In this document: one piece after another, positions 11 to 49,258 of the stretch | Position numbering within the stretch: position 1 is the stretch's first letter | How the letters are laid out: each line of letters opens with the position of its first letter | NCBI RefSeq assembly: GCF_023169945.1 | Contig: NZ_AP025591.1 | Span: forward strand, 1,014,501 to 1,078,500 | DNA from: Anaeromyxobacter oryzae | GTDB taxonomy: Bacteria > Myxococcota > Myxococcia > Myxococcales > Anaeromyxobacteraceae | DNA length: 64,000 nt | Direction of reading: 5' to 3' | Notes under the pieces: model-generated | What the model was told of the DNA's origin: nothing | The model's input: the letters and a program-made list of their open reading frames with translations, nothing else | The model's database searches: none | Program-made: the position numbers and the translations under genes

Positions 11-3000
11 ATGAACCCAGCACGCCCGACCGTCCGTCGCCGGCTCGTCGCACGCCTGTTCCCGCTCCTGGTGGCGCTCGGCGCCTTGCCGCTGCTCGCG
101 CCCACCTGCGACGGCAGCCAGCCGGGCCTGAAGACCTTCTCCCGCGGCTCGCTCATCATCCCGATGGACGTCTGCTACCAGTACATGACGGACGGCGTGA
201 AGAGCGGTTACACGCCGTTCGCGTGCCCGCAGGCGCCGGATCCCGGGGACGTGATCAAGGCGTACGGCCTCGTCTACCAGCTCATCCGCAACAACATCGC
301 GGTGTACTGGGTCATCAACCCGACGAAGACGGCCGTGACCGGTACCGACCTCGCCATCCAGTACGACGGCGGGTTCCCGGTCCTCCGCTACGACTGGGCG
401 AGCGGCGGGAGCGGCACCGCGCCGACCGCGCAGCACGTCGTACGCTACCTCGGCGGCCCCTTCGTCGTGGACGGCACCGACGCGGCGCGCGCGTCGCAGG
501 TGCTCCAGCAGTACAAGGCCACGTTCGGCGCGGTGCGCGTCCACGTCTCGAACGTCGCGTTCCAGGGGAACGTGGCGAAGACCATGGCGGGCGGCTGGAG
601 CGCCGGCGGGACGGTTCCGCCGAAGCTCGCGCTGCTCGACATCGGCAGCTCGGGCGCGGGCGCGAAGAACTCGGAGATCGTGATCCAGGGCTATCTCCAG
701 CGCGCGGGCCTCGACACCCCGGGCGCCGCGGGCACGGCCACCGGGACGCACGGCCAGATCTACGACCGGCTCTTCATGTCCGACTTCCTGCCGGACGCGA
801 GCGGCGACTGGAAGACGACGAACCTCTACAAGAACGGCTACCAGGTGCTCTGGGTTCCGCACTGGGCGGCGCCGAGCTCCTGCAGCGACTGCCCGCCGGG
901 CGCCTCGTGCACCTGCGCGAACAAGTACTCCGCCGCGACGATCGCCCAGGCTCTCCAGACGATCGGCGCCTTCTCGGTGGCGGGCAAGGACGTCTTCGCC
1001 GAGTGCGCCGGGCTCGGCAGCTTCGAGGGCGTGTTCAGCAGCACGTCCACGACGAGCACGTACGGCAGCACCTACCAGTCAGGCGCGGCCAACACGCACT
1101 TCGAGACCCAGGCGCCGACCGGCTTCTGGATCAACAAGACGACGAGCTCCGCGTACCTCTGGGGCAACTTCGCCTCGCCGCTCATGCAGCTCGGCGACTA
1201 CCCGTTCATCCCGCGCGACGGCGCGATCCAGAACTTCAAGGCCTCCGCGTACAAGGCCGAGACCACGCGGCTCATCTCCGACTCGACCGACAATACCTAC
1301 GACATCTTCACCCTCGTGCCGGGCACGGCGGCCCACGGGACGGTGGTGTACCTGGGCGGCCACAGCTACTCGGGGAGCGACGGCGCGTTCGAGGTGGGCG
1401 GAAGCCGCCTCGTCCTCAATACCCTCTTCAACCTCGGCGCGAGCTGCGTCGCGAGCGGCGTCGCCTGCAACACCGGCAAGCTCGGCGTCTGCGCGCAGGG
1501 CGTCATGGCCTGCGACGCGCAGGGGCAGGCGATCTGCAAGCAGGTCACGGCGGGCTCCGCCGAGATCTGCGACGGCCTCGACAACGACTGCAACGGACTG
1601 GTGGACGACGGCCTCGACGAGGGCTGCTACGACGGCCCCGTCGCGACGCGGAACGTCGGCCTCTGCCGGGACGGCGTCCGCTCGTGCAGCCGGCGCGCCG
1701 ACGGCAGCTACGCCATGAGCGCGTGCACGGGCCAGCTTCTCCCGTCGGACGAGGTCTGCAACGGCCTCGACGACAACTGCAACGGGAAGGTGGACGAGGA
1801 TCCCGTCGACACGACCAAGGGCCTCTCCCAGGCCTGCTACACCGGGCCGACCGATACCGTCGATCCCGCGACCGGCGTGCCGCTCGGCATCTGCAAGGCG
1901 GGCCTCCAGTCCTGCAGCGCCGGCACCTGGGGGGCCTGCCAGGTCTGCGGCCCGGACGCGTGGACGGACCGCAGCAACCCGGCGTACGCGAGCTGCGAGA
2001 TCCTCCCGCAGGCGGAGCTCTGCCAGGCGGACGGCGCCGGGAACCAGGTCGACATGAACTGCAACGGCGCCGTCGCGGAGACCTGCGGCTGCGTGCCCGA
2101 GACGTCGAAACCGCAGTCTTGCTACGACGGTCCGCCGGCGACGGCCGGCGTGGGGAGCTGCCGGAAGGGGACGCAGACCTGCGTCGCCGTCGGCCAGTGG
2201 AGCGCCTGCCAGGGCGAGGTGCTCCCGCAGAAGGAGATCTGCGGGAACGGGGTCGACGACGACTGCAACGGGATCGTCGACGACCCGGTGGTCTGCAACA
2301 CCTGCCCCGCCCCGGCCGATCCGGCCCGCGTCTGCTACGTGAACGCGGACCACTCCGCGCCGCAGGGGCTCTGCGCGAACGGCGTCCGGAGCTGTGCGGA
2401 CGGCATCCTCGGCGCCTGCGAGCAGATGATCCTGCCCGCGCCGGAGATCTGCGACGGCAAGGACAACAACTGCGACGGCCAGGTGGACGAGAACCCGGAC
2501 ACGCTCTGCATGGCCGGCTTCACCTGCGTGCACGGCGTCTGCATACCGCGGACGTGCGGCGTCGAGTCGCCCTGCCCCGATGGCTACGCGTGCCAGGGCG
2601 GCGCGTGCGTCCGCTCGACGTGCAACGGCGCGACGTGCGCCGACGGCCAGATCTGCGAGTTCGGCGCGTGCGTCGATCCCTGCGCGTCGGTGAAGTGCGG
2701 CGCGGGCTCCACCTGCGCGAGCGGCGCGTGCTCCGGCGGCGGCTGCTACTTCACAGGCTGTGACCCCGGCCTCGTCTGCCGCAACGGCGCGTGCGAGGCC
2801 GACCCCTGCGCCGCCCTCACGTGCCCGAGCGGCACGTTCTGCCGGGCGGGCGACTGCGTCCAGGCGTGCACGTTCGTGACCTGCGCCGCGGGCCAGCGCT
2901 GCGGCGGCGACGGGTTCTGCGTCCCGGACCTCTGCACGGGGAAGAGCTGCCCGCCCGAGCAGACCTGCGTCGACGGGACGTGCCAGGCCGATCCATGCCT

Positions 3001-5224
3001 CGGCATCGCCTGCGGCCAGGGCCAGGTCTGCGACGGCGGCAGCTGCGTCGACGACCCCTGCGCCGCGATCACGTGCCCCGCCGGCCAGTGCCTCCGCGGC
3101 CAGTGCTACGCGGCGGGCACGCTCACCGCGTCGCCGAAGCCGGACGAGCCGTCGTCCTCGGGCTGTGGCTGCGGCTCGGGCGCGGGGAGCCCACTCTCGG
3201 CGCTGCTGCTCCTCCTCGCCGCGCCGCTCGCGCGGCGGCGCCGGCGCCCGGCGGGCGGCGGCCGCGCCACGGGCGTCCTGGCCGTGCTGCTCCTCGCGAC
3301 GGCCCTGATCGGCGCGGGGTGCCAGAAGGCGTCCGATCCGTTCGATCCCACGAAGTGCGCCGAGACGTGTGGCGAGCAGCGGTGCGTCGACGTGCTGTCG
3401 GATCCCGTCCACTGCGGCCGCTGCGAGACGGCCTGCGGCGCCGGGCAGATCTGCGTCGACGCGACCTGCGGCCCGGCCACGGCGGTGGCACCGTTCATCA
3501 AGGCCGTGACGCCCGCCGCCGCGGCGAAGGGGAGCACCGCGCCGGTCGCGCTCACCGGCGAGCGGTTCGCCGACGGCGCCACGCTCCGCCTCGTCTCGCC
3601 CCGCGGGACGAGCACAGTCGCGGCGCAGGTCCAGGACGCGGGCCACCTCACGGCCGTCCTCGACCTGTCCGACTCGCCCACGACGTCGCTCGACCTCCGG
3701 GTCGTGAACCCGGATCACGTGATCTCGAACGCGGCGCAGTTCGACGTGATCACGCCGACGCCCATCGTGAACGCGGTCACCCCGGCGACGATCTCCGCCG
3801 GCGCCGCGCAGTCGCTCGCGGTGACCGGGAGCGGCTTCATGCCGGCGAGCCAGTGCCGCGTGAAGGGGGCCCGCCTCGCCGAGCAGGCGCTCCCGACCAC
3901 GCCGGCCTCGGGCACCGCCCTCACGTGCACGTTCGACACCGCCGGGCTCGCGCCGGGCGCGTACGAGCTCTGGGTCGTGAACGAGGGCACGCTCGCCTCC
4001 AACCACTTCGCGCTCGCGATCCAGAGCGCCACGCCGCACCTCGACGCCGTGAACCCGTCGACCGGCCAGCCCGGCGCGGTCGTCGCGCTGTCCGTCGTGG
4101 GCACCGGGTTCGACCTCACGAGCGCGGTCCTCTTCGACGGCACCGCGCAGCCGACGACGTACCTCGATCCCGGACACCTGCTCGTCCAGCAGCTCACCCT
4201 CCCCGCCTGCGCGAGCACCTGCTCGTCCAGCGTGGCGGTCCGGAACGCGTCCGTCACGTCGAACACCGCGCCGTTCGTGGTCGCCGCGACCGCGCCCAAG
4301 GCGGACAACCTGAGCGTCGCGCCCTCGCCGCTGTACCAGGGCGACACCGCGACGCTCACGTTCACCGGCAGCGGCCTCGCCTCGGCGACCGGGATCTCGG
4401 TCCTGCCGCCGGTGGGCGCCGCGCTCGCCGCGTCCCTCTCCGGGACGCCCACCGCGACCGAGGTGAAGGGCACCCTGTCGCTCTCCGGAACGCCGGACGG
4501 GCTCTACTCGGCGCAGGTCGTCTTCCCGGGGGGCGTCACGTCCTCGAGCTTCCAGTTCCGCGTCCTCTCGAACGTCGCGGTCCTCCGCTCGGCGACGCCG
4601 GCGGGCGGCAAGCAGGGCGACGTCGTCTCGACCACCCTGACCGCCTCGAACCTCCGCGAGCCCCGCGCCTCGATCCGCGTCGTCTTCCAGGGGCCCGGCG
4701 CGGCCGGCCCGGCGCGCACGCTCGTCCCGACCTCGTTCGCTCCCGCGGCGCCCTCGCTCCCGACGACCGTGGTCGTCCCCCTCGACCTCCGCGGCTTCGA
4801 GACCGGCACCTACGCGCTCTCGGTCGTGAACCCCGGCGCCGCCGCGTCCAACGCCGTCTCGTTCAGCGTCACGCCCGGCCCGCCGACGATCACCGCGGTG
4901 TCGCCGGCCTGCCTCGTCCAGAGCGACTCGCCGGCGACGGTCACGATCACGGGGACCAACTTCGCCGCCGACGCGAGCGGCGCGCCGGTGTCCCAGGTCA
5001 TGATCACGTCGACGGCGCTCGGCGGGAGCTTCGTCGCGCTTCCCGCGTCCGCGGTCGTCACGGTGAAGAGCGCGACCGAGATCCAGGTCCTGCTCGACAC
5101 GCGCGACGCGGTCGTCGATCCGTCCGCGGGCTACACGATCTACGGCGTCGCGGTGTGGAACCCGCCGGGGCCGCAGCAATCGAACTCCGATCGGAGCCTC
5201 AAGATCGGAAACGCCTGCCCGTAG
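11..5224 (+). CDS. Giant secreted Cys-rich MopE/TIG-repeat protein with internal MYXO-CTERM
   Basis: The 1737-residue product starts with an N-terminal signal sequence (Arg-rich then hydrophobic, residues about 8-30). Residues about 35-500 belong to no family I recognise. Residues about 500-830 carry MopE/thrombospondin-3-like acidic Cys motifs such as CDGLDNDCNG, CNGLDDNCNG and CDGKDNNCDG, which suggest calcium binding. Dense EGF-like Cys repeats follow (about 840-1035). At about 1048-1080 there is a complete MYXO-CTERM-type element: GCGCGSG, a Leu-rich helix, then RRRRR. Normally this element ends a protein, but here the frame stays open. It runs into a second hydrophobic stretch with a lipobox-like GAGC (Cys about 1104), then six TIG/IPT-like immunoglobulin folds to the end. 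The product is probably displayed on the cell surface. It could be a genuine fusion of two neighbours or a lost stop codon. The exact function is unknown. Confidence 0.85.
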   Translation: MNPARPTVRRRLVARLFPLLVALGALPLLAPTCDGSQPGLKTFSRGSLIIPMDVCYQYMTDGVKSGYTPFACPQAPDPGDVIKAYGLVYQLIRNNIAVYWVINPTKTAVTGTDLAIQYDGGFPVLRYDWASGGSGTAPTAQHVVRYLGGPFVVDGTDAARASQVLQQYKATFGAVRVHVSNVAFQGNVAKTMAGGWSAGGTVPPKLALLDIGSSGAGAKNSEIVIQGYLQRAGLDTPGAAGTATGTHGQIYDRLFMSDFLPDASGDWKTTNLYKNGYQVLWVPHWAAPSSCSDCPPGASCTCANKYSAATIAQALQTIGAFSVAGKDVFAECAGLGSFEGVFSSTSTTSTYGSTYQSGAANTHFETQAPTGFWINKTTSSAYLWGNFASPLMQLGDYPFIPRDGAIQNFKASAYKAETTRLISDSTDNTYDIFTLVPGTAAHGTVVYLGGHSYSGSDGAFEVGGSRLVLNTLFNLGASCVASGVACNTGKLGVCAQGVMACDAQGQAICKQVTAGSAEICDGLDNDCNGLVDDGLDEGCYDGPVATRNVGLCRDGVRSCSRRADGSYAMSACTGQLLPSDEVCNGLDDNCNGKVDEDPVDTTKGLSQACYTGPTDTVDPATGVPLGICKAGLQSCSAGTWGACQVCGPDAWTDRSNPAYASCEILPQAELCQADGAGNQVDMNCNGAVAETCGCVPETSKPQSCYDGPPATAGVGSCRKGTQTCVAVGQWSACQGEVLPQKEICGNGVDDDCNGIVDDPVVCNTCPAPADPARVCYVNADHSAPQGLCANGVRSCADGILGACEQMILPAPEICDGKDNNCDGQVDENPDTLCMAGFTCVHGVCIPRTCGVESPCPDGYACQGGACVRSTCNGATCADGQICEFGACVDPCASVKCGAGSTCASGACSGGGCYFTGCDPGLVCRNGACEADPCAALTCPSGTFCRAGDCVQACTFVTCAAGQRCGGDGFCVPDLCTGKSCPPEQTCVDGTCQADPCLGIACGQGQVCDGGSCVDDPCAAITCPAGQCLRGQCYAAGTLTASPKPDEPSSSGCGCGSGAGSPLSALLLLLAAPLARRRRRPAGGGRATGVLAVLLLATALIGAGCQKASDPFDPTKCAETCGEQRCVDVLSDPVHCGRCETACGAGQICVDATCGPATAVAPFIKAVTPAAAAKGSTAPVALTGERFADGATLRLVSPRGTSTVAAQVQDAGHLTAVLDLSDSPTTSLDLRVVNPDHVISNAAQFDVITPTPIVNAVTPATISAGAAQSLAVTGSGFMPASQCRVKGARLAEQALPTTPASGTALTCTFDTAGLAPGAYELWVVNEGTLASNHFALAIQSATPHLDAVNPSTGQPGAVVALSVVGTGFDLTSAVLFDGTAQPTTYLDPGHLLVQQLTLPACASTCSSSVAVRNASVTSNTAPFVVAATAPKADNLSVAPSPLYQGDTATLTFTGSGLASATGISVLPPVGAALAASLSGTPTATEVKGTLSLSGTPDGLYSAQVVFPGGVTSSSFQFRVLSNVAVLRSATPAGGKQGDVVSTTLTASNLREPRASIRVVFQGPGAAGPARTLVPTSFAPAAPSLPTTVVVPLDLRGFETGTYALSVVNPGAAASNAVSFSVTPGPPTITAVSPACLVQSDSPATVTITGTNFAADASGAPVSQVMITSTALGGSFVALPASAVVTVKSATEIQVLLDTRDAVVDPSAGYTIYGVAVWNPPGPQQSNSDRSLKIGNACP

Positions 5225-18400: not shown

Positions 18401-19123
18401 ATGACGGAACGCTCGGCGAAGCTCGTGTTCTGGGTGGGGACGGTCGCGTCGCTCGCGCTGTTCCTCGCGCTGACCCTCGACACCCACCGCCACTTCGATG
18501 CGCTCACGCACGCCGATCGCCTGGACGAGGCGGTCGTCACCGGGAAGCGCGCGTTCGAGCGGCACAACTGCAACGACTGCCACACCATCCTGGGCTTTGG
18601 CGGCTACTACGCCCCGGACCTCACGCGTGCCTACACGCGCGTGGGCGAGGAGACGATCCGGGCGCGCCTCGAGCGTCCGGAGCTGGTGCTCGCGTCGTCG
18701 TGGCGGAAGATGCCGCAGCAGCACGTCCCTGCCGCGGAGGTGACCGCCCTCGTCGCGTTCCTGCGCTGGGTCTCGGCCATCGAGAACAACGAGTGGCCGC
18801 CGCAGGACTCCGAGAACCGCTGGAAGGCGTCCACCCGCCGCCTGATCGCAGGCGCCGCTCTCTCGCCAGGCGCGGCGCTCGTCCAGCAGGAGAACTGCCT
18901 CGCGTGCCACGCACTCGGCGACAACGTCGCGCGCGTCGCCCCGCGGCTCGAGTGGATCGGTACACGTCGGGACGTCGCCTGGATCGCCGCGTACGTCGCC
19001 GACCCGCAGCGCCTCGCCCCCGGGACGTCGATGCCCGCGTATGACGCGCTCCCGGCGGCGCAGCGCCAGGCCATCGCCGAGTTCATCGTGAGCCTCGCCC
19101 CGAACCGCGGGAGGGAGCCGTGA
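18401..19123 (+). CDS. norC: Nitric oxide reductase cytochrome c subunit, diheme form
   Basis: The 240-residue product has one N-terminal membrane anchor (about 8-26). The NorC-type heme site CNDCHTILGFGGYYAPDL is at 57-61 onward. A second c-type heme site, CLACH, is at 166-170, in a cytochrome c domain with a possible distal Met (GTSMPAY). Ordinary NorC is about 150 residues with one heme, so this protein carries an extra electron-transfer domain. It should feed electrons from periplasmic donors to NorB for reduction of NO to N2O. The TGA overlaps the GTG of norB as GTGA. GGAG lies before ATG 18401. Confidence 0.92.
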   Translation: MTERSAKLVFWVGTVASLALFLALTLDTHRHFDALTHADRLDEAVVTGKRAFERHNCNDCHTILGFGGYYAPDLTRAYTRVGEETIRARLERPELVLASSWRKMPQQHVPAAEVTALVAFLRWVSAIENNEWPPQDSENRWKASTRRLIAGAALSPGAALVQQENCLACHALGDNVARVAPRLEWIGTRRDVAWIAAYVADPQRLAPGTSMPAYDALPAAQRQAIAEFIVSLAPNRGREP

Positions 19124-20451
19124 CGTACCAGAGCCAGCGGGTGGCCTACCCGTACTTCGTCGTGGCGCTCCTCCTGTTTGCGCTCCAGCTCGTGCTCGGG
19201 CTGTGGATCGCCTTCAACTACTGGTTCACGGTGCCGCAGGCGATCGTCGACGTGTTCCCGTTCTCGACCGCGCGCGCGATGCACACGAACCTGCTCGTGC
19301 TCTGGCTCCTGCTCGGGTTCATGGGGGCGACGTTCTACGCGATCCCCGAGGAGACGCAGTCCGAGCTCGCGTGGCCGAGGCTTGCGATCGTGCAGCTCGT
19401 CCTCCTGGTGGCCACGGGCGTCGTCTCGCTGGTGGGGTTCCTGTTCGGCTGGACCCAGGGGCGCCCGCTGCTCGAGATCCCGCGGCCCCTCGACTTCCTG
19501 ATCGTCGCCGGCGCGCTGATGTTCCTCGGCAACGTCGGGATGACCATCCTGCGAGCGCGGCGGTTCACCGCGACGCAGGGGAGCCTCCTCGGGGGCCTGG
19601 TCTTCCTCGCGCTGATGTATCTGTTCGGCATCCCCTTCTACCGGAACCTCGCCGTCGACTGGTACTACTGGTGGTGGGTCATCCACCTGTGGGTCGAGGG
19701 CGCGTGGGAGCTCGTGGCCGCGGCGCTCGTCGCGTTCATGATCATCCACCTCACCGGCGTCGACCGGCGGGTGGTCGAGAAGTGGCTCTACGTCGAGCTC
19801 GGCCTGTTCCTGTTCACCGGGATCGTCGGGACCGGCCACCACTACTACTGGCTCGGCGCGCCGAAGTACTGGCTGTGGGCCGGGGGCGTCTTCTCTGCGC
19901 TCGAGCCGCTGCCGATCGCCCTCATGCTGCTCGACACCTGGAATCACATGCGCGAGAGCCGGCGGCCACTCAGGCCACGACTCACCTGGGTGTTCCTCTT
20001 CGGCATGGCGGTGCTGCACTTCGTCGGCGCCGGCGCCTTCGGCTTCGCGCACACGCTCCCGCAGATCAACTACTACACGCACGGCAGCCAGGTGACCGTC
20101 TCGCACGGCCACCTCTCGTTCTACGGTGCGTACGTGCTCCTGAACCTGAGCTTCTTCTATTTCGCCATGCCGCGCCTCAGGCGCTTCCCGACGGACGAGT
20201 ACCGCTCCACCCTGGGACACTGGGGCTTCTGGGTGATGAGCATCTCGCTCCTCGGGATGAGCCTCGCGTTTGCGATCGCAGGCGTCCTGCAGACGTACCT
20301 CGAGCGCGTGCAGGGCCAGGCCTACATGGTGGCGCAGCAGCCGATGCGCTTCTGGATGCTCGTCGTCTTCCTGCACGGCATCGGCGTCCTCGCCGGCGCG
20401 GGGCTGGCCATCGTCCACCTGCTCACGCTGAAGCCGGCACTCGCGCGGTAG
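19120..20451 (+). CDS. norB: Nitric oxide reductase catalytic subunit
   Basis: The 443-residue product is a heme-copper-oxidase-superfamily membrane protein with about 12 helices. It is close to cNorB: AMHTNLLVLWLLLGFMGATFY holds a heme b His, HLWVEGAWEL the FeB-site His and Glu region, and GHHYYWLGAPKYWLW the following His pair. It lacks the long N-terminal quinol-oxidising extension of qNOR, in keeping with an adjacent norC. It reduces NO to N2O in the cytoplasmic membrane. No norQ, norD or norE lies next to it, so maturation factors must be encoded elsewhere or be unnecessary. The GTG start overlaps the norC stop by 4 bp. Confidence 0.95.
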   Translation: MTYQSQRVAYPYFVVALLLFALQLVLGLWIAFNYWFTVPQAIVDVFPFSTARAMHTNLLVLWLLLGFMGATFYAIPEETQSELAWPRLAIVQLVLLVATGVVSLVGFLFGWTQGRPLLEIPRPLDFLIVAGALMFLGNVGMTILRARRFTATQGSLLGGLVFLALMYLFGIPFYRNLAVDWYYWWWVIHLWVEGAWELVAAALVAFMIIHLTGVDRRVVEKWLYVELGLFLFTGIVGTGHHYYWLGAPKYWLWAGGVFSALEPLPIALMLLDTWNHMRESRRPLRPRLTWVFLFGMAVLHFVGAGAFGFAHTLPQINYYTHGSQVTVSHGHLSFYGAYVLLNLSFFYFAMPRLRRFPTDEYRSTLGHWGFWVMSISLLGMSLAFAIAGVLQTYLERVQGQAYMVAQQPMRFWMLVVFLHGIGVLAGAGLAIVHLLTLKPALAR

Positions 20452-40761: not shown

Positions 40762-40867
40762 GTGCCCGTGCCCGTGCCCGTGAACGTGCCCGAGTCCCTC
40801 CGTGCCCATGACCCGCTTCCCGTGGCCCGATGCCCGAGTCCCCGCGGCCCGTGGCCCCGTTCCCGGT
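40762..40867. repeat. GTGCCC-rich repeat between kinase and ccoS
   Basis: The convergent gap is filled by a GTGCCC-based imperfect tandem, beginning with three GTGCCC units and then GTGAAC. It continues with CCCGTGGCCCG-like phrases. A closely similar series, in the same order and orientation, lies in the coding tail at 62110-62200. Confidence 0.7.
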
Positions 40868-41085
40868 CACGCACCGCCGCGCGGACGCCCGCGATCGTCA
40901 CGCCCCCCGTGATCGCGCCCGGGATCCCGGGCCGGCGGGGCACCCTCCTCCTCCTCGTCCTCCAGCATCCGGTACTTCGGCCCCTCGGGGTCCTCGTACT
41001 GCCCGCTCTTCACCGACCACATGAAGAGCAGCCAGGCCCCGATCCCGACGGCCAGCGAGAGCAGGATCAGGAGCCCGATGCTCAT
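40867..41085 (-). CDS. ccoS: cbb3 oxidase maturation protein CcoS
   Basis: The 72-residue product has one N-terminal membrane helix (MSIGLLILLSLAVGIGAWLL). The motif MWSVKSGQYEDPEGPKYRML is the CcoS hallmark. CcoS helps insert cofactors into CcoN. The C-terminal 25 residues are Arg/Gly/Asp-rich and longer than usual. Its ATG overlaps the ccoI TGA as ATGA, so translation is coupled. A GTGCCC-rich repeat begins at its stop codon. Confidence 0.92.
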   Translation of the reverse strand: MSIGLLILLSLAVGIGAWLLFMWSVKSGQYEDPEGPKYRMLEDEEEEGAPPARDPGRDHGGRDDRGRPRGGA

Positions 41086-43583
41086 GGCGCCATCCCCGCC
41101 GGCGCCGCGGCCGCGCGGGGCGCCGTCGCGACCGCCCTCACCGGCACGGGCACCGCGAGGCGCCGCAGTCGCACCGAGTTCCCGACGACGAACACCGAGC
41201 TCGCCGCCATCGCCGCGGCGGCGACGATGGGGTGGAGCACGCCGGCCATGGCGAGCGGGATCGCGACGAGGTTGTAGAAGAACGCCCAGAAGACGTTCTG
41301 GCGGATGACGGCGTACGCGCGCCGCGAGATGGAGACGAGCTCCGGGAGGAGGCGGAGATCGTCCCGGACCAGCACCACGTCCGCGCTCTCCATCGTGACG
41401 TCCGTCCCGCGCCCCATCGCCGCGCCGACGTCGGCCTGGACGAGCGCGGGCGCGTCGTTGAGCCCGTCGCCCGCGAACACCACGCGCCGCCCCGCCGCCT
41501 GGCGGCGCGCCACCTCGGCGCGCTTCTCGACGGGCGACGCGCCAGCCAGCGCGGCGAGACCGAGCCCGCCCGCGACGGCCCCGGTGGTGAGCGCGGTGTC
41601 CCCGCTCACGAGGGCGAGCTCGACCCCGAGCGCCCGGAGCGCCGCGATGGCAGCGGGCGCCTCCGGCCGGACCGGGTCCGCCACAGACAGCAGCGCCTCC
41701 AGGCGTCCGCCGCGCGCGAGGAACGCGACCGTCTCCGCCCGCGCCTCGCACACGCGGGCGCGTGCGTCCGCGTCGGGCGGCAGCGCGACGCCGCGGGCCG
41801 CGAGCAGCGCGCGGTTGCCCACCAGCACCTCGTCCCCGCCGACGAGCGCGACGACGCCCTGGCCCGGCACGGCGCGGAACCCCGTCGCCTCCCGCTCGGC
41901 GCCGGCGACGAGCGCGCGCGCGGCCTCCGCGACCGCGCGCCCGACGTGGTGCTCGCTCCGCCGCTCGACGGCGGCCGCCAGCGCGAGGGCCCCGTCGCGA
42001 TCGAGCCCGGGGGCGAGCGGCACGACCTCGCGCAGGGCGGGACGGCCGCGCGTCACGGTGCCGGTCTTGTCCAGGAGGACGTCGGTCGCCTTCGCGGCGC
42101 GCTCGAGGACGTCGCCGCCCTTGACGAGGATCCCGCGGGTGGTCGCCGCGCCGGTCGCCACCAGCACCGCGATCGGCGTCGCGAGGCCGAGGGCACACGG
42201 GCAGGCGATCACCACCACGGCGATGCCGGTCATGAGCGCCCGCTCCGCGGGGGCGCCGCGCGCGAGCCAGAAGGCCGACGTCGCCACGGCGAGGACGAGC
42301 ATCGCCGGCACGAACCCGCCGACGACGCGGTCCGCCACCGCCTGGATCCGCGGCTTCTGGGCCTGCGCGTCCTCCACGGCGCGGACGATCCCGGCGAGCA
42401 CGGTGTCCTTCCCGACGCGCGTCACCTCGACGAGGAGCGCGCCGTGCTGGTTCACCGTCCCGCCGATCACCGCCGCGCCCGGCGCCTTCGCGACCGGCCG
42501 CGACTCGCCGGTGAGGAGCGCCTCGTCCACCTCCGACGCACCCTCGAGCACCGTGCCGTCGAGCGCGATCCGCTCGCCCGGAAGCACCTCGATCCGGTCG
42601 CCCGGGCGGAGCTCCGACACCGGCACGCTCCGCCGCGCCGGCGTCCCGCCGGAGCCCGCCTCGACCCGCCGCGCCTCGCGCGGCGCGAGCCGGGCGAGGC
42701 GCGCCACCGCCTCCGACGCGCGCCCCTTCGCCGCCGCCTCGACGTAGCGGCCGACGAGGACGAGCGTGGGGATCATCGCGGCGGTGTCGAAGTAGACCTC
42801 GCCGCCGCGGAGCATGCCCCAGACGCTCTGCAGGAGCGCCGCGCCGGAGCCGATCACCACGAGCGCGTCCATGTTGAACCGCAGGTGGCGGAGCCCGCGC
42901 GCGGTCGCCCGCAGGAACGGCGCGCCGGCGTACAGGACCACGGGCAGCGTGAGCGCGAGGGCGATCCACTCCATGAGCCGCCGCGTCGAGCGATCGATGC
43001 CCTGGAAGTACCCGGCGTAGAGCGCGCCCTGGTACACCATGAGCTGCATCGACAGGAACGCCGCGGTGCCGAGCCGGACGAGCAGGTCCTTCGCCTCCGC
43101 ACGGCGCGCGGCGAGCTGCTCGGTGTCCGACCACGGCTTGGGCGAGTAGCCGGCGGCCCGGATCCGATCGAGGATCCGCGCGAGGTCCACCGCCGCCGGA
43201 TCGAAGCGGACGCGCGCCCGGTGCGTCGCGTAGTTCACGCGCGCCGCGAGCACGCCCGGCGTCCGGGCGAGGAGCTTCTCGTTCAGCCAGACGCACGAGG
43301 CGCAGCGGATGCCGTCGATGGCGACGTCGACCTCGGCGATCCCGCCCGCCTCGCGCACCGCGCCCTCGAACGCGGCGAGATCGAGCGGCGCCGCGCCGGC
43401 GGGGCCGGTCTCCGACCAGCGGCGCGTGTCGTAGTACGCGGCGAGCCCCTCGTCGTGAACGAGCTGGAAGACGCCCCGGCACCCCGCGCAGCAGAACACG
43501 CGCGGCGCACCGGCGATCTCGGCGCGCACCGCCTCGCGCGCGGGGAAGTCGGCCAGGCAGTGATCGCAGCGCAGCGCCGTCAC
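41082..43583 (-). CDS. ccoI: Copper-translocating P-type ATPase CcoI
   Basis: The 833-residue product is a heavy-metal P1B-type ATPase with cbb3-assembly features. The N-terminal CDHCLADF and CCAGC Cys clusters are followed by an HMA domain with CASC near residue 92. Metal-binding CPC is in ACPCALGLATP (near 461), phosphorylated Asp in DKTGTVTRG (near 504), and the hinge is GDGLNDAPAL (near 704). It supplies copper for the CcoN binuclear centre. The start is GTG 43583 with GGAGGG upstream, and it overlaps the preceding TGA as GTGA. Confidence 0.95.
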   Translation of the reverse strand: MTALRCDHCLADFPAREAVRAEIAGAPRVFCCAGCRGVFQLVHDEGLAAYYDTRRWSETGPAGAAPLDLAAFEGAVREAGGIAEVDVAIDGIRCASCVWLNEKLLARTPGVLAARVNYATHRARVRFDPAAVDLARILDRIRAAGYSPKPWSDTEQLAARRAEAKDLLVRLGTAAFLSMQLMVYQGALYAGYFQGIDRSTRRLMEWIALALTLPVVLYAGAPFLRATARGLRHLRFNMDALVVIGSGAALLQSVWGMLRGGEVYFDTAAMIPTLVLVGRYVEAAAKGRASEAVARLARLAPREARRVEAGSGGTPARRSVPVSELRPGDRIEVLPGERIALDGTVLEGASEVDEALLTGESRPVAKAPGAAVIGGTVNQHGALLVEVTRVGKDTVLAGIVRAVEDAQAQKPRIQAVADRVVGGFVPAMLVLAVATSAFWLARGAPAERALMTGIAVVVIACPCALGLATPIAVLVATGAATTRGILVKGGDVLERAAKATDVLLDKTGTVTRGRPALREVVPLAPGLDRDGALALAAAVERRSEHHVGRAVAEAARALVAGAEREATGFRAVPGQGVVALVGGDEVLVGNRALLAARGVALPPDADARARVCEARAETVAFLARGGRLEALLSVADPVRPEAPAAIAALRALGVELALVSGDTALTTGAVAGGLGLAALAGASPVEKRAEVARRQAAGRRVVFAGDGLNDAPALVQADVGAAMGRGTDVTMESADVVLVRDDLRLLPELVSISRRAYAVIRQNVFWAFFYNLVAIPLAMAGVLHPIVAAAAMAASSVFVVGNSVRLRRLAVPVPVRAVATAPRAAAAPAGMAP

Positions 43584-44254
43584 CCGAGCCCTCCGACCCC
43601 GAGCCCGCGCAGGACGAAGACGACGCCGAGCGCGGCGACGAGGAGGCCGCCGGCGCGGTAGAGGACGCCGCGCGCCCGCGCGCCGAGCCAGCTCGTCGCG
43701 ACGCCGGCGAGGAGCAGCGCCGGCAGCGTGCCGAGGCCGAACACGAGGGCGAGGAGGAGGCCGGTCGCGGGGTGGCCGGTCCCGGCGGCGCCGAGGAAGA
43801 GCGTCCAGGAGAGGCCGCACGGCAGGAAGCCGAGGACGAGGCCGAGCGGGTACAGGCGGCCGGCCGCGCCGCCCTCGAGGAGCGTGCGCGCGAGGGCGGA
43901 CAGCTTTCCGGCCGCGCGGGCCTCGATGCGACGGACGGAGAGCGCGAGGCCGGCGGCGCCGAGGCCCATGAGGACCATGACGACGCCCGCGATGACCGAC
44001 GCCGCCGCCGTCACGCCGGCGAGCCGCCCCGCGACGTTCACGAACGAGCCGGTCATCCCCATGACGCCGCCCACCATCGCGTAGGTGGTGAGCCGCCCGG
44101 CGTGGTAGGCGAGCTGCCCCTGGAGCGCCCGGGCCGTGCCGCGCGGCGCGCCGGCGAGGGCGAAGGCGCCCACGAGCGGGCCGCACATCGGGAGGCAATG
44201 GCCGAAGCCCCCGAGGAGCCCGGTCACGAACGCCATGGCGATGGTGCCCGCCAC
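43580..44254 (-). CDS. TauE/DsbD-like membrane protein of the cbb3 cluster
   Basis: The 224-residue product has about six membrane helices. Motifs FGHCLPMCGPLVGAFAL near the start and GFLPCGLSWTLFLGA near residue 130 are typical of the SafE/TauE family often found with ccoGHIS genes. The paired Cys residues resemble DsbD-type membrane thiols or metal sites, so it may support copper delivery. The GTG start at 44254 lies two bases after the fixH stop; ATG 44236 is an alternative. Its TGA overlaps ccoI as GTGA. Confidence 0.86.
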   Translation of the reverse strand: MAGTIAMAFVTGLLGGFGHCLPMCGPLVGAFALAGAPRGTARALQGQLAYHAGRLTTYAMVGGVMGMTGSFVNVAGRLAGVTAAASVIAGVVMVLMGLGAAGLALSVRRIEARAAGKLSALARTLLEGGAAGRLYPLGLVLGFLPCGLSWTLFLGAAGTGHPATGLLLALVFGLGTLPALLLAGVATSWLGARARGVLYRAGGLLVAALGVVFVLRGLGVGGLG

Positions 44255-44256
44255 GC

Positions 44257-45078
44257 CTACTCCTCCACCCGGAACGCCACGTCCGCCGTGCGCGGCGCGC
44301 CGCCCGCGGGCGCCACGGTGACTCGCGCGCTCCAGTCCTTCCGCCCGCTCGGGCAGCGGACGAGGACGGCCTTCCCCGCGTAGCGGCCCGCGCCGGCGCG
44401 GGCGAGCGACGTCCGGTTCGGCCCCATGTCCATGCCCTGCATCTCGAAGGCGACCGCGACGGCGGCGCCGTCCAGCGGCGCGCCACCCTGCCTGACCTCC
44501 GCCGCGACCACGAGGTCCGCCATCGTCCGGAGCGGGCGCGGGCCGAGCTCGAGCGTCACCGCGCCGCCGCCGCCGAGGTCGAGCGTGCACGGGTTCGCGG
44601 CGAGATCGCACCGGGCGGGCCCGGGCGCCGCGGCCGCCGCCGCGACCGACACGACGCGCGACAGCCTCGACCGGTCCGCGCCGTGGCGGACGTCGAACCG
44701 GAGCTCCCACCCGCCCGGCGCGGCGAACGCGGAGTCCACGACGTAGCGCCCGCCGCCCGCGTCCCGCGCCTCGGCCGTCCACTGACCGTGGCTGCTCTCG
44801 GCGCGCGTCACGGTCAGGGAGACCGTCGCGCCCGCGAGCGGCGCGCCGGCGTGGTCCCGGAGCTCGAAGACGATCGGCCCCGCCGCGGGGAGCGGCTCGC
44901 CGGGGACGGTCACCGTCCACCCGAGCGCCGCGCGGGCGTGGTGCTCGGCGTCGTGCTGGAGCCCCTCCTCGTAGGGCTTCGCGACGACCGTGTCCTCGCG
45001 GACCTGGCTGCCCACGTAGATGGCGGCTGCGACCGCGCCGAGGGCAGCGACGGCGGCGACGGCGATGAGCAGCTTCAA
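44257..45078 (-). CDS. fixH: FixH-like protein with extra YtkA-like domain
   Basis: The 273-residue product has an N-terminal membrane helix (LLIAVAAVAALGAVAAAIYVG) and a periplasmic FixH-type fold (about 60-160). A second beta-rich domain contains the Met-rich FEMQGMDMGPNRTSL near residue 230, typical of YtkA/FixH copper-related domains. Total length is clearly greater than ordinary FixH (about 160-170 residues), so a domain has been added. The TTG start overlaps the ccoG TGA as TTGA, with GGAGG upstream. It is needed for cbb3 oxidase assembly in other bacteria. Confidence 0.8.
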   Translation of the reverse strand: MKLLIAVAAVAALGAVAAAIYVGSQVREDTVVAKPYEEGLQHDAEHHARAALGWTVTVPGEPLPAAGPIVFELRDHAGAPLAGATVSLTVTRAESSHGQWTAEARDAGGGRYVVDSAFAAPGGWELRFDVRHGADRSRLSRVVSVAAAAAAPGPARCDLAANPCTLDLGGGGAVTLELGPRPLRTMADLVVAAEVRQGGAPLDGAAVAVAFEMQGMDMGPNRTSLARAGAGRYAGKAVLVRCPSGRKDWSARVTVAPAGGAPRTADVAFRVEE

Positions 45079-46307
45079 GGAGCCTCCGGGACCAGGATCG
45101 AGAGCTTCGTGGAGCGCCGCTCGAGCACGCGTTCGCCGGCGCGGACCTCCGCGACGAGGAGCGCGGGCTCGACGCCGGCGGGGAGCCCGCGCGCCGTCGC
45201 GACGACCCGGACCTGCCGGTGCTCGCCCGCGTGGAGCGCGATCGTGTCGGGGCGGACCGAGACGTCCCAGCCCTCCGCGCCGGCGCGCGAGGGCGCGAGG
45301 GCGAGGGTCACCGAGACCGGCGTCCGCGCGCGGTTCTCGAGCGCGACGGCGTAGGCGTTCACGACTCGCCCGTCCGCGCCCCGGCGCGCGGCGAAGCCGG
45401 CGTCGGCGCTCGCGACGAGCCCCACCAGGTCGCGGCCGGCGACCACCGCGACGAGGCCGACGAGCGCGGCCGCGGTCGCGGCGGCGAGCGCCACCGTCGC
45501 CGGGCGGACGAGCCGGCGCGGGGCGCCCGGCGCGCCGTGGAAGTAGCCGACGAGATCGGGCGCGCGCCGGAGCCTCGCCATGATCGGCCGGCACGCGTCG
45601 ATGCACGCGGCGCAGGCGATGCACTCCATCTGCAGGCCGTCGCGGATGTCGATGCCGGTCGGGCAGACCCGGACGCACGCGCCGCAGTCCACGCAGTCCG
45701 CGGCGCGGCGCGCGTCGTACGCGACGACGAGCGTCGACGGGTCGAAGAGGACGCCCTGCAGCCTCGCGTACGGGCAGACCGTCGCGCAGAACGTACCGCG
45801 CACGAAGGCGAGGTCCGCGAACAGCACCGCGCCGAGCGCGGCCCACGCGCCGCCGAGCACCGGCCCGAGCGCGCCGGCCGCGAGGCGGCGGAGGAACTCC
45901 TGCGGCGGGACGAAGTACCAGAGCGTCGCGGCGGAGAAGAGCGCGGAGACGAGGAAGACGAGGAGGAACCCGACCGGCCGGCGCCAGCGCCGCGGCCGCG
46001 CGCGCCGCTCGGGCGCGACCGGCGCGGTGAACTCCCCGAGCACCGTCTGCGGGCACGACCAGCCGCACCAGACGCGCCCGAAGAGCACGGTGACGAGGAG
46101 GAACGCCGCCGCGAGGAAGAGCACCGCCGCGAGCACGACGAAGCCCTCGTCTACCGCGAACGTCGCGCCGAACGCGAGGAGGCGCCCGCCCGGCACGTCG
46201 AGGCGGAGCGCGCTCTCCCCGCCGACGGACACGAAGGGCAGCCCGAGGACGACGAGCGCCTGGGCTGCCCCCGCGATCCTGCGCCACCTCTGGAAGCTAG
46301 TCGTCAT
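45075..46307 (-). CDS. ccoG: cbb3 oxidase accessory iron-sulfur protein CcoG
   Basis: The 410-residue product has about five membrane helices. The CGWSCPQ motif is near residue 81. Two [4Fe-4S] motifs are CVDCGACVRVCP and CIACAACIDACRP (about 195-235). A C-terminal Ig-like domain follows. This is the CcoG/RdxA layout; CcoG acts as a cupric reductase during cbb3 assembly. Its ATG lies inside the last codons of the small upstream gene (11-bp overlap), and its stop overlaps fixH. Confidence 0.94.
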   Translation of the reverse strand: MTTSFQRWRRIAGAAQALVVLGLPFVSVGGESALRLDVPGGRLLAFGATFAVDEGFVVLAAVLFLAAAFLLVTVLFGRVWCGWSCPQTVLGEFTAPVAPERRARPRRWRRPVGFLLVFLVSALFSAATLWYFVPPQEFLRRLAAGALGPVLGGAWAALGAVLFADLAFVRGTFCATVCPYARLQGVLFDPSTLVVAYDARRAADCVDCGACVRVCPTGIDIRDGLQMECIACAACIDACRPIMARLRRAPDLVGYFHGAPGAPRRLVRPATVALAAATAAALVGLVAVVAGRDLVGLVASADAGFAARRGADGRVVNAYAVALENRARTPVSVTLALAPSRAGAEGWDVSVRPDTIALHAGEHRQVRVVATARGLPAGVEPALLVAEVRAGERVLERRSTKLSILVPEAP

Positions 46308-46437
46308 CCTCGAGCATCTTGTACTTCGCGTGCTCCACCCGGTCCTTCCGCCGCCGGGAGAAGTAGAAGGCGATGATCCCGGCGAGCGCGAGGCACAGCG
46401 TCGCGCCGAAGATCAGGTAGGCGGTGTCGGAGCCCAT
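46297..46437 (-). CDS. 46-residue CcoQ/CcoS-like membrane peptide
   Basis: The frame encodes 46 residues: one membrane helix (AYLIFGATLCLALAGIIAFY), a basic stretch (SRRRKDRVEH) and the acidic end YKMLEDDD. The YKMLED tail resembles the CcoS end, whereas size, single helix and place after the subunit genes suggest CcoQ, the small fourth subunit of cbb3 oxidase. It is short enough to be missed by ordinary length cut-offs. ATG 46437 has GAGAG upstream, and its 3' end overlaps ccoG. Confidence 0.7.
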   Translation of the reverse strand: MGSDTAYLIFGATLCLALAGIIAFYFSRRRKDRVEHAKYKMLEDDD

Positions 46438-46504
46438 GGTTCTCTCGGGGTGCGGAGCGGAGCGGCTCCGGGCCCCGCGCAGGCGGAGCCCGGAGCGCCG
46501 TCGC

Positions 46505-46786
46505 TCAGCCCTTCTTCTTCCGCTGGGTGAGGATGATCAGCACGGCGGCGATCGTGGGGATCGCGGTGAACAGGATGGTCGCGAGGAGGTTCGACGACGC
46601 CGCGGCGCCGTTCCCCTCGAGGTCCTGCGACTGCGACCAGCCGCCGAGCGCGGGCGTGTACGCCCAGAGGTAGTACGCGCCGAAGACGATGAGCCCCCAG
46701 AACAGGAGGAGCCAGCCGGCGGGCAGCTTCCTCGCGGTGCCCTTCGCCTCGAACGCCTCGATGTCGTCCAGCTGCGGTTCGGACAT
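46505..46786 (-). CDS. CcoP N-terminal-like membrane protein without heme
   Basis: The 93-residue product has a cytoplasmic N-terminus and a first helix matching the FixP/CcoP N-terminal domain (PAGWLLLFWGLIVFGAYYLW). A second helix and a Lys-rich end (TQRKKKG) follow. There is no CxxCH, so it corresponds to the CcoP anchor without its two cytochrome c domains. One such domain appears fused to CcoO next door. It lies 13 bp after ccoO. Confidence 0.82.
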   Translation of the reverse strand: MSEPQLDDIEAFEAKGTARKLPAGWLLLFWGLIVFGAYYLWAYTPALGGWSQSQDLEGNGAAASSNLLATILFTAIPTIAAVLIILTQRKKKG

Positions 46787-46799
46787 GATGGTCGGCCTC

Positions 46800-47810
46800 C
46801 TAGTGGTGGCCCTCGGCCGCCTCGTGCGCCTTCTGGTTCCTGAGCCACGCCACGATCGACCAGATGTCGTCGTCGGACAGATCGCTCCCGTACGCCTGCA
46901 TCCCGCCGTCCGGCTGGCCCGGGCGGCCCAGCGCCTTCTTCGCGTCCGAGCCGCCCTTGATCACCGCGAAGTACGCCGCGTCGGGCAGATCGCCCTTCAC
47001 GCCGAGGAAGGTGTCGTCGATGAGGCTCGGCGCGACGCCCTCGGTGCCCTGGGCCTCGTCGCCGTGGCACGCGCTGCACGAGTTCGCCTCGAAGAGCTTC
47101 TTCCCCTTCACGACCGCCGCGACGTCGTTCGCGTGCGGGTTCGCCACCGCGAGGTCGACCTCGCCGCCGGCGGCCCCGCCGCGGTCCACGCCGCGCCCGA
47201 GCGAGACGACGTACGCCACGAGGGCGTCCAGCTCGCTCTTCCCCCCCACGACCGCCGGGACGGCCTCGATGTCCGCGTCGGTGTACGGGACGCCGAGCGT
47301 GCGCAGCGCCCGCATGTGGCCCTGGATGTCCGCGGCGTCGAGCTTCCCGTCCTTCAGGAACCGGTACGCCGGCATGTTCGAGCGCGGCACGAGCGCCCGC
47401 GGGTTCTCGAGGTGCGCCGCCTGCCAGTCCTTCGACGGCTTCACCCAGCCCTCGAACGCGAGGTCCGGGCCGGTGCGCTTCGAGCCCCAGAGAAACGGGT
47501 GGTCCCAGACGAACTCGCCGGCGAGCGAGTACTGCTCGCTCGGCACCTTGGCGCGGTTCCCCTTGTAGCGGACGACCTCGCTCTTCAGCGGCCGGACCGT
47601 CTGGGTGTGGCAGTTGACGCAGCCCTCGCGCTGGTAGACGTCGCGCCCGGCGAGGGCGAGGCCGTCGAGCGGCTTCATGCCGGCGGGCGGCGGCGGGTGC
47701 GTGCCCGGGGTGAAGATCGGGACGACCATCATGACGATGGTGCCGACGAGGACGACGACGGTCGCGAGCACCGCGAAGGCGACGGGCTTCCGGTAGATGT
47801 TTCCGCTCAT
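46800..47810 (-). CDS. ccoO: cbb3 oxidase subunit CcoO fused to a cytochrome c domain
   Basis: The 336-residue product has an N-terminal anchor (about 8-33). The CcoO core carries heme site CVNCHTQTVRPL at 64-68 and NMPAYRFL near 170. A C-terminal class I cytochrome c domain (about 235-336) carries CSACHGDEAQG near 246-250 and GGMQAYG. Ordinary CcoO is about 200-240 residues with one heme, so a CcoP-type domain has been fused on. GGGAGGG lies before ATG 47810, 14 bp after ccoN. Confidence 0.93.
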   Translation of the reverse strand: MSGNIYRKPVAFAVLATVVVLVGTIVMMVVPIFTPGTHPPPPAGMKPLDGLALAGRDVYQREGCVNCHTQTVRPLKSEVVRYKGNRAKVPSEQYSLAGEFVWDHPFLWGSKRTGPDLAFEGWVKPSKDWQAAHLENPRALVPRSNMPAYRFLKDGKLDAADIQGHMRALRTLGVPYTDADIEAVPAVVGGKSELDALVAYVVSLGRGVDRGGAAGGEVDLAVANPHANDVAAVVKGKKLFEANSCSACHGDEAQGTEGVAPSLIDDTFLGVKGDLPDAAYFAVIKGGSDAKKALGRPGQPDGGMQAYGSDLSDDDIWSIVAWLRNQKAHEAAEGHH

Positions 47811-47824
47811 GGTGTCGTCCCTCC

Positions 47825-49258
47825 CTACGCCGCCGAGACCGCAGCCGGGGCCGGCCGGGCGCGATCCTGCGCCGCCTCGAGCGCCTTGCCCTTCTGGATG
47901 GTCTTCAGGACGTTGTAGATGAAGAACAGCATGCCGACGGTGAAGATGATCCCGGCGAGCGTGCGCGTGTGCCAGTACGGATAGTTCCGCTCGAGCCCCT
48001 CCATGAAGGAGTACTTGAGGGTCCCGGAGGCGTCGGTGGCCTTCCACATCCAGCCCTGCTGGATGCCGGTGATCCACATCGTCACCGAGAAGAGGAGCTG
48101 GCCGACGAGCACGAGCCAGAAGTGGACGTTGGCGATCTTCTCCGAGTAGATCGTGGTCCCGTAGATCTTGGGGATGACGTAGTAGACCGACGCGCAGACG
48201 GTCATCGTCACCCAGCCCATGGTGCCCATGTGCACGTGGCCCGGCACCCAGTCGGTGTAGTGGATGAGCTGCGAGACGACGCGGAGCGCCTGCGTCGGCC
48301 CCTGCACCGTCTGCAGGCCGTAGAAGGTGATCCCGAGGACGAAGAACTTGGTCAGGTAGTTGGTCTTCATCTTCGACCAGTCCTGACCGACGGTGTAGTA
48401 GCCGTTCACCACCGAGCCCCAGCTCGGCGCGATGAGGAACATCGTGAAGACGATCGCGAGCGTCTGGATCCAGTCCGGGAGCGGCGTGTAGACGAGGTGG
48501 TGCGCGCCCGTCCACATGTACGAGAAGATGAGCGACCAGAACGCGACGATGGAGAGCCGGTGGCTGTAGATCGGCAGCCCGGTCGCCTTCGGGAGGAAGT
48601 AGTAGAACATCATCAAGATGGGGGTCGTGAACACGAAGCCCACCGCGTTGTGCCCGTACCACCACTGCACGTTCGCGGAGTTCACGCCGGCGAAGAGGTG
48701 GTAGCTCTTCATCCCGCCCGCCGGGATCGCGAGGTTGTTCACCAGGTAGAGGATGGCGACGGCGACGACGGTCGCGATGGCGTACCAGAGCGACACGTAC
48801 ATCTGCTCCTCGTTCCGCTTGATGATCGTCCCGAAGACGTTCACCGCGAACATCACCCAGAGCACCACGATGGCGATGTCGAGGGGCCACTCGAGCTCCG
48901 CGTACTCGAGCGACTGCGTGTAGCCCATCATCAGGCTCACCGCGGCGGCGGCGATGCCGACGTTGAAGAGCCACAGCTGCGCGCGCGCGAGCCGCGGGAA
49001 CAGGAGCGGCCGCTTGCAGAGGCGCATCACCACGTAATAGGTGAGCCCGAAGATCGCGCCGACGCCGAGCCCGAACGCGAGGCCGTTCGTGTGGACCGCG
49101 CGGAGCCGCCCGTAGGTCAGCCACGGGGTGAAGTTCGCCGCCGGCAGCCACAGCTGCACGCTGATGAGCAGCCCGATGACGATGCCCACGACCCCCCAGA
49201 AGATGGCCGAGAGGATGAACCCCTGGACCGTCCGGTGGTCGTACCGATAGTCGTTCAT
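47825..49258 (-). CDS. ccoN: cbb3-type cytochrome oxidase catalytic subunit CcoN
   Basis: The 477-residue product is a heme-copper oxidase subunit I with about 12 helices. It reduces O2 at a heme b3-CuB centre with high affinity. Conserved segments include AVHTNGLAFGLGVGAIFGL, WWYGHNAVGFVFTTPI, GAHHLVYTPLPDW, GTMGWVTM and GHVHMGTMG; the His residues in these ligate hemes and CuB. ATG 49258 was chosen because GGGAGGG is at proper spacing; an ATG at 49267 would be too close. It leads the operon. Confidence 0.96.
   Translation of the reverse strand: MNDYRYDHRTVQGFILSAIFWGVVGIVIGLLISVQLWLPAANFTPWLTYGRLRAVHTNGLAFGLGVGAIFGLTYYVVMRLCKRPLLFPRLARAQLWLFNVGIAAAAVSLMMGYTQSLEYAELEWPLDIAIVVLWVMFAVNVFGTIIKRNEEQMYVSLWYAIATVVAVAILYLVNNLAIPAGGMKSYHLFAGVNSANVQWWYGHNAVGFVFTTPILMMFYYFLPKATGLPIYSHRLSIVAFWSLIFSYMWTGAHHLVYTPLPDWIQTLAIVFTMFLIAPSWGSVVNGYYTVGQDWSKMKTNYLTKFFVLGITFYGLQTVQGPTQALRVVSQLIHYTDWVPGHVHMGTMGWVTMTVCASVYYVIPKIYGTTIYSEKIANVHFWLVLVGQLLFSVTMWITGIQQGWMWKATDASGTLKYSFMEGLERNYPYWHTRTLAGIIFTVGMLFFIYNVLKTIQKGKALEAAQDRARPAPAAVSAA

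Follow-up and report, generated by a model that had tools for sequence, protein, structure and literature searches.

A cbb3 oxidase operon in Anaeromyxobacter oryzae with two heme domains on CcoO and a heme-free CcoP

The cbb3 operon and its subunits

The window analysed here, a 64,000-nucleotide stretch of the Anaeromyxobacter oryzae genome, contains a complete cbb3 operon on the minus strand, in the order ccoN, ccoO, a gene for a 93-aa protein, a ccoQ-like gene, ccoG, ccoH, a gene for a DsbD_2-type membrane protein, ccoI and ccoS. Among bacterial oxygen reductases of high affinity, the cbb3 oxidases are a major group. The genes and features of the operon are as follows.

47825..49258, minus strand: ccoN, catalytic subunit, 477 aa (COX1, E 1.7e-107)
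46800..47810, minus strand: ccoO with two c-type heme domains, 336 aa (FixO and Cytochrome_CBB3)
47607..47621, minus strand: first heme motif CVNCH, CcoO residues 64-68 (from the sequence)
47064..47078, minus strand: second heme motif CSACH, CcoO residues 245-249 (from the sequence)
46803..47186, minus strand: C-terminal cytochrome c tail of CcoO, the added heme domain, residues ~209-336 (Cytochrome_CBB3, Cytochrom_C)
46505..46786, minus strand: heme-free CcoP, 93 aa, consisting of a FixP_N anchor (~residues 1-60) and a C-terminal membrane helix
46508..46600, minus strand: micro-subunit-like segment fused to the anchor, residues ~63-93 (profile match)
46297..46437, minus strand: ccoQ-like peptide, 46 aa (FixQ, E 1.5e-5)
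45075..46307, minus strand: ccoG, assembly ferredoxin-type protein (TIGR02745, E 4.2e-78, below its cut-off; Fer4_18, E 2.5e-30)
44257..45078, minus strand: ccoH (FixH) with YtkA-like domains (FixH, E 6.2e-15; YtkA, E 1.6e-12)
43580..44254, minus strand: DsbD_2 / sulfite-exporter-type membrane protein of the cco operon (DsbD_2, E 2.3e-43)
41082..43586, minus strand: ccoI, copper-type P-type ATPase, start approximate (E1-E2_ATPase, E 1e-52; HMA; ATPase-cat_bd)
40867..41085, minus strand: ccoS (FixS, E 8.8e-18)

CcoN, a FixO-type CcoO and the assembly genes ccoG, ccoH, ccoI and ccoS are thus all present, as in other cbb3 oxidases; a heme-bearing CcoP, which usually carries two hemes, is found neither at this locus nor in the genome. 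CcoN scores 528 bits against TIGR00780, below the cut-off of 583, and the His motifs expected for its metal ligands (HTNGLAFG, GHNAVGF, TGAHHLVY and GHVHMG) are present by eye. The 46-aa peptide had been described in the sequence-only reading as CcoQ/CcoS-like. It is CcoQ-like, with 25.2 bits against FixQ (below the cut-off of 29), but it was not matched by FixS in the Pfam profile search, and CcoS is the separate gene at 40867-41085.

The same reading had assigned a second heme domain to CcoO, and this was borne out. Residues 5-184 match FixO (Pfam, E 3e-60) and residues 232-323 match Cytochrome_CBB3 (Pfam, E 8.4e-15), each domain with its own heme motif. Among 59 relatives, the Cys and His of both motifs are invariant, as are M146 and M304. 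A CcoO of this kind is an already-known protein type: the window's protein, tail included, aligns over residues 3-330 with the NCBIfam model NF011054/PRK14486 (CcoO plus cytochrome c) at 445.5 bits, against a cut-off of 447, and six genomes of the same genus score above the cut-off, at 478-516 bits. That model covers CcoO only and is silent on CcoP.

For the neighbouring 93-aa protein, the sole Pfam match is FixP_N (E 3.7e-5, profile positions 18-43 of 48, slightly below the Pfam cut-off), and its full sequence contains no CXXCH motif. FixP_N is matched by all 40 of its aligned relatives, and across 40 anchors from two phyla P22, G24, W25, L28, L32, G36, Y39, P45, G49, W50 and Q52 are invariant. 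The predicted structure consists of two long helices, modelled with low confidence (pTM 0.38). The description of this protein as the heme-free N-terminus of CcoP and nothing else holds for its anchor but not for residues ~63-93, which match a separate ~30-aa membrane peptide of Nitrospirota. Hereafter we denote a layout by the c hemes on CcoO plus those on CcoP, so that the window's locus is 2+0.

A full ccoP encoded elsewhere was looked for. FixP_N and FixO each match the single 6.72-Mb contig of the genome once, at this locus, and among the Cytochrome_CBB3 matches read out there was no anchored CcoP, that is, FixP_N followed by heme domains; the search called for by the earlier reading thus found no full ccoP, and we reject one outside this locus. 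Nor does a full CcoP hide in other genomes with this layout, because each carries a single FixP_N match: exactly one in 18 of the 18 Anaeromyxobacteraceae genomes with such a match and in 60 of the 60 from Nitrospirota. It might still be that a heme-bearing CcoP or another membrane cytochrome encoded elsewhere docks onto the complex and gives a third heme, since with 13 Cytochrome_CBB3 matches the genome has spare cytochromes; but with none of those read out CcoP-like, and one FixP_N in all, we give this hardly any credence.

Distribution and conservation of the layout

Fused CcoO occurs in 20 of 24 Anaeromyxobacteraceae genomes, and the heme-free anchor is present at each of the 19 family loci whose downstream DNA was read, including L017 and L019, where it was recognised on reading the DNA. 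The twentieth locus (G023) is split over contigs, and a FixP_N match adjoins it. The other four genomes of the family (G004, G010, G015 and G016), two of which are 99-100% complete, have neither fused CcoO nor FixP_N, and the cbb3 operon is seemingly absent from them.

In Nitrospirota, 39 of 346 sampled genomes have a full-length match to the CcoO-cytochrome protein; 6 of these are of the 2+1 type, and the 2+0 layout is found in ~33 of the 346. At the 30 Nitrospirota loci read, a CcoO of ~305 aa carries two hemes, a heme-free anchor of ~61 aa adjoins it nearly always, and a CcoQ-like peptide is often present. A further, separate occurrence of 2+0 is at L201 and L202.

Other layouts are distributed differently. 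The canonical 1+2 was found in Proteobacteria and in one Nitrospirota genome (L190), and 2+1 in some Nitrospirota and in most fused loci of the phylum to which G182 belongs. The 1+1 layout was found in some Nitrospirota and at the 13 other Myxococcota loci read, where CcoO mostly lies within frames of 700-900 aa that are CcoN-CcoO fusions. These PRK14485-type oxidases have two c hemes in all, as here, but with one on CcoO and one on CcoP, whereas both are on CcoO in the window. Two c hemes in total are therefore ordinary outside Proteobacteria, and it is their location that is unusual. The earlier statement that the enzyme would have two c hemes on one chain rather than three on two stands as to the chain, with two on CcoO and none on CcoP; the drop from three to two is not the special part, because 1+1 is normal in the other Myxococcota loci checked. 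The comparison across Myxococcota that had been proposed confines 2+0 to one family among those sampled. Many operons with this layout, which the earlier reading would have counted against it, do exist: it is present in most of that family and in about a tenth of the sampled Nitrospirota, and its fused CcoO is a named NCBI family. For the heme-free CcoP itself, however, a search of mostly subscription-free literature found no published description.

Several single loci depart from these patterns. At L191 (G412; minus strand, 2554-3378), the one 1+0 genome, a CcoO with one heme is accompanied by a headless CcoP, possibly leaving a single c heme in total. Four Nitrospirota loci (L221, 1962-5065; L222, 4841-7942; L223, 4736-7810; L224, 4572-7738) encode a single chain of 944-997 aa comprising CcoN, CcoO and two more cytochrome c domains, followed by a heme-free FixP_N protein of 50-74 aa. 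A divergent CcoO-like protein of Myxococcota (L177, G047), 320 aa long, bears two heme motifs, and a cytochrome c is encoded separately downstream of it.

Selection on the anchor bears on whether the small CcoP is a functionless, decaying remnant soon to be lost. Some features would fit decay: the heme-free CcoP ranges from 50 to 104 aa, and within the window's own genus dN/dS is 0.19-0.71, a weaker constraint than in Nitrospirota. Some Anaeromyxobacter-type pairs are at up to 0.5-0.7, and the close pair L018/L020 is at 0.93 on few changes. However, in Nitrospirota pairs dN/dS or pN/pS is 0.04-0.16, which is strong purifying selection; the anchor is present in every intact 2+0 locus read in both phyla, retains its invariant residues and has been kept in three separate lineages. 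A decaying remnant is thus very unlikely. Chance or an annotation artefact was ruled out on similar grounds, namely conservation of the layout in two phyla and purifying selection on the anchor in the Nitrospirota pairs. We conclude that a CcoP anchor combined with a CcoO tail is confirmed as a real and conserved layout.

The C-terminal third of the 93-aa protein adds a further element. It matches a profile of ~30-aa Nitrospirota ORFs with E 3.1e-7, compared with 0.02 for the best of 1800 shuffled decoys. In most Nitrospirota loci of the 2+0 type, such an ORF (MDISIxATIxFT...RKK) lies downstream of the anchor, as a rule with a ribosome-binding site; the pooled pN/pS is 0.14. In genus g2 of the window's family the element is a separate 34-aa ORF, while in the window and most of Anaeromyxobacteraceae it is the C-terminal helix of the anchor protein. 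Among the scanned loci of the 2+1 and 1+1 types it was found at L218 alone, and it has no Pfam match and no match among PDB sequences, CcoM included. The loci with this unannotated single-helix ORF are L065, L147-L173, L014, L018 and L020, and it lies in fused form at 46508-46600 of the window.

Origin of the oxidase and probable movement of the heme domain

We built the CcoO tree on the FixO domain alone, leaving out the tail columns. All 2+0 loci of Anaeromyxobacteraceae and Nitrospirota share the same side of a branch with full support (99; 100/100 in a second tree), with Anaeromyxobacteraceae as one group among Nitrospirota and the other Myxococcota on the far side (100/99). Vertical inheritance within Myxococcota receives no support from this tree. 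The placement of the family's CcoO among Nitrospirota, apart from other Myxococcota, fits lateral acquisition by the family's ancestor, and on this evidence the oxidase looks to have been acquired in that way. The trees would fit this direction of transfer but do not prove it.

Heme-free CcoP appears at three separate places on the tree, namely the main 2+0 clade, L201/L202 and the single-chain type, and at least four changes of state are needed, one locus with a heme on CcoP (L218) lying inside the main clade. As to the source of the tail, a quick tree grouped the 2+0 tails with the 2+1 tails and the 2+1 CcoP domains (support 91), whereas in a careful tree of fewer than 100 columns the 2+0 tails stay apart, so descent of the CcoO tail from a CcoP domain is not proven by the trees. 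Within single Nitrospirota 2+1 operons, the tail of CcoO shares 43-53% identity with the CcoP domain, which would fit one having been copied from the other.

Evidence that the domain moves between subunits comes from L218 (G816), where CcoO and CcoP bear one heme each. The CcoO of L218 lies inside the 2+0 clade as sister to L152 (100/96) and its CcoP anchor is of the 2+0 type, while its CcoP heme domain falls within the group of 2+0 CcoO tails (98/93, from 95 alignment columns and a single assembly). L218 could be taken for an ancestral missing link, but its position inside the 2+0 clade makes a later move of the domain onto CcoP likelier. Both chains have thus served as carriers of this heme domain, which looks portable.

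Proposed electron input and role of the anchor

In Rhodobacter capsulatus, the CcoP hemes cp2 and cp1 hand electrons on to the CcoO heme, from which they reach heme b and then b3-CuB (PMC7876108). For the 2+0 oxidase we propose a working enzyme in which the CcoO tail provides electron input in CcoP's stead and the anchor is kept for assembly, a reading to which we assign a probability of about 0.65. Electrons would enter from an external cytochrome c at the tail heme, which would take the role of the CcoP heme domains, and would continue through the CcoO heme and heme b to heme b3-CuB in CcoN. The helix of the heme-free CcoP may stabilize the complex or guide assembly together with CcoQ and CcoH (contacts of CcoP with both have been reported). 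In the window this helix is joined to another small membrane helix, which relatives encode as a peptide of its own of ~30 aa. The analysis establishes the sequences, their domains and conservation, the lack of another CcoP and the recurrence of the layout, while we infer the loading of the hemes, the path of the electrons and the part played by the anchor in assembly. The strongest support for the tail acting in CcoP's place comes from L218, where CcoP bears the same domain, albeit in one assembly and over 95 alignment columns. The earlier proposal of an alternative electron-input arrangement is supported, with two heme domains on CcoO, none on CcoP and no other CcoP.

Oxidase subunits with a single-domain cytochrome tail are known, and the CcoO tail might instead be a mobile cytochrome c built into the enzyme, as in caa3 oxidases, swinging on a linker and taking electrons directly from complex III or another donor. 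Consistent with this, the stretch that joins the tail (residues 211-220) has a mean pLDDT of 63 and low conservation in the alignment, in an AlphaFold model of CcoO alone with a mean pLDDT of 81.7 and pTM of 0.76. Among PDB structures, that model is matched best by the CcoO chains of cbb3 oxidases and next by cytochrome c folds; for the tail itself, the matches are ordinary cytochrome c folds, which leave the matter undecided. The domain exchange with CcoP in G816, however, suggests equivalence to a CcoP domain and not to a free cytochrome, and we consider a mobile tail unlikely.

Known systems share parts of this arrangement. The canonical CcoNOQP oxidases of R. capsulatus and Pseudomonas stutzeri (3mk7) share with the window's locus CcoN, the FixO domain (3mk7_B, E 9.6e-52), CcoG/H/I/S and, by a FixQ match below the cut-off, CcoQ, but their CcoP has two hemes and their CcoO one heme fewer. 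The PRK14485-type oxidases lie elsewhere on the CcoO tree, with CcoN and CcoO fused. Green sulfur bacteria have a reduced CcoP and a related operon: the Prosthecochloris CcoP, of 138 aa, combines FixP_N with a single Cytochrome_CBB3 domain (PMC10158934), and the cbb3 cluster of A. dehalogenans has been reported as syntenous with that of Chlorobiaceae (PMC2330069); there, however, CcoP keeps one heme. The tri-heme CcoP of Neisseria, a fusion with cytochrome c5 (PMC2924362), is likewise a modular gain of a cytochrome domain by a cbb3 subunit, but on an unreduced CcoP and not on CcoO. Databases already contain the CcoO fusion; new to specialists would be the heme-free CcoP and its repeated origin, the movement of a domain between subunits and the micro-subunit.

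More tentatively, at somewhat under even odds, the CcoP anchor may be an essential structural or assembly subunit and the heme domain a portable module for which CcoO, CcoP or a CcoN-O fusion chain can serve as carrier, with the 2+0 clade adding an unannotated single-helix subunit of ~30 aa. The roles of CcoP in holding the complex together and in passing electrons are hard to part in the usual model organisms and are separated naturally here, and because this has happened in three seemingly independent lineages, a direct test of each role is possible. For annotation, a short or missing ccoP does not mean a broken oxidase, and a c-heme count of three should not be assumed.

An additional cytochrome domain is also present on another accessory subunit of the oxidase family encoded in the window, a NorC-like protein of 240 aa with two heme motifs (18401-19123, plus strand), whose gene adjoins a NorB-like COX1 gene at 19120-20451.
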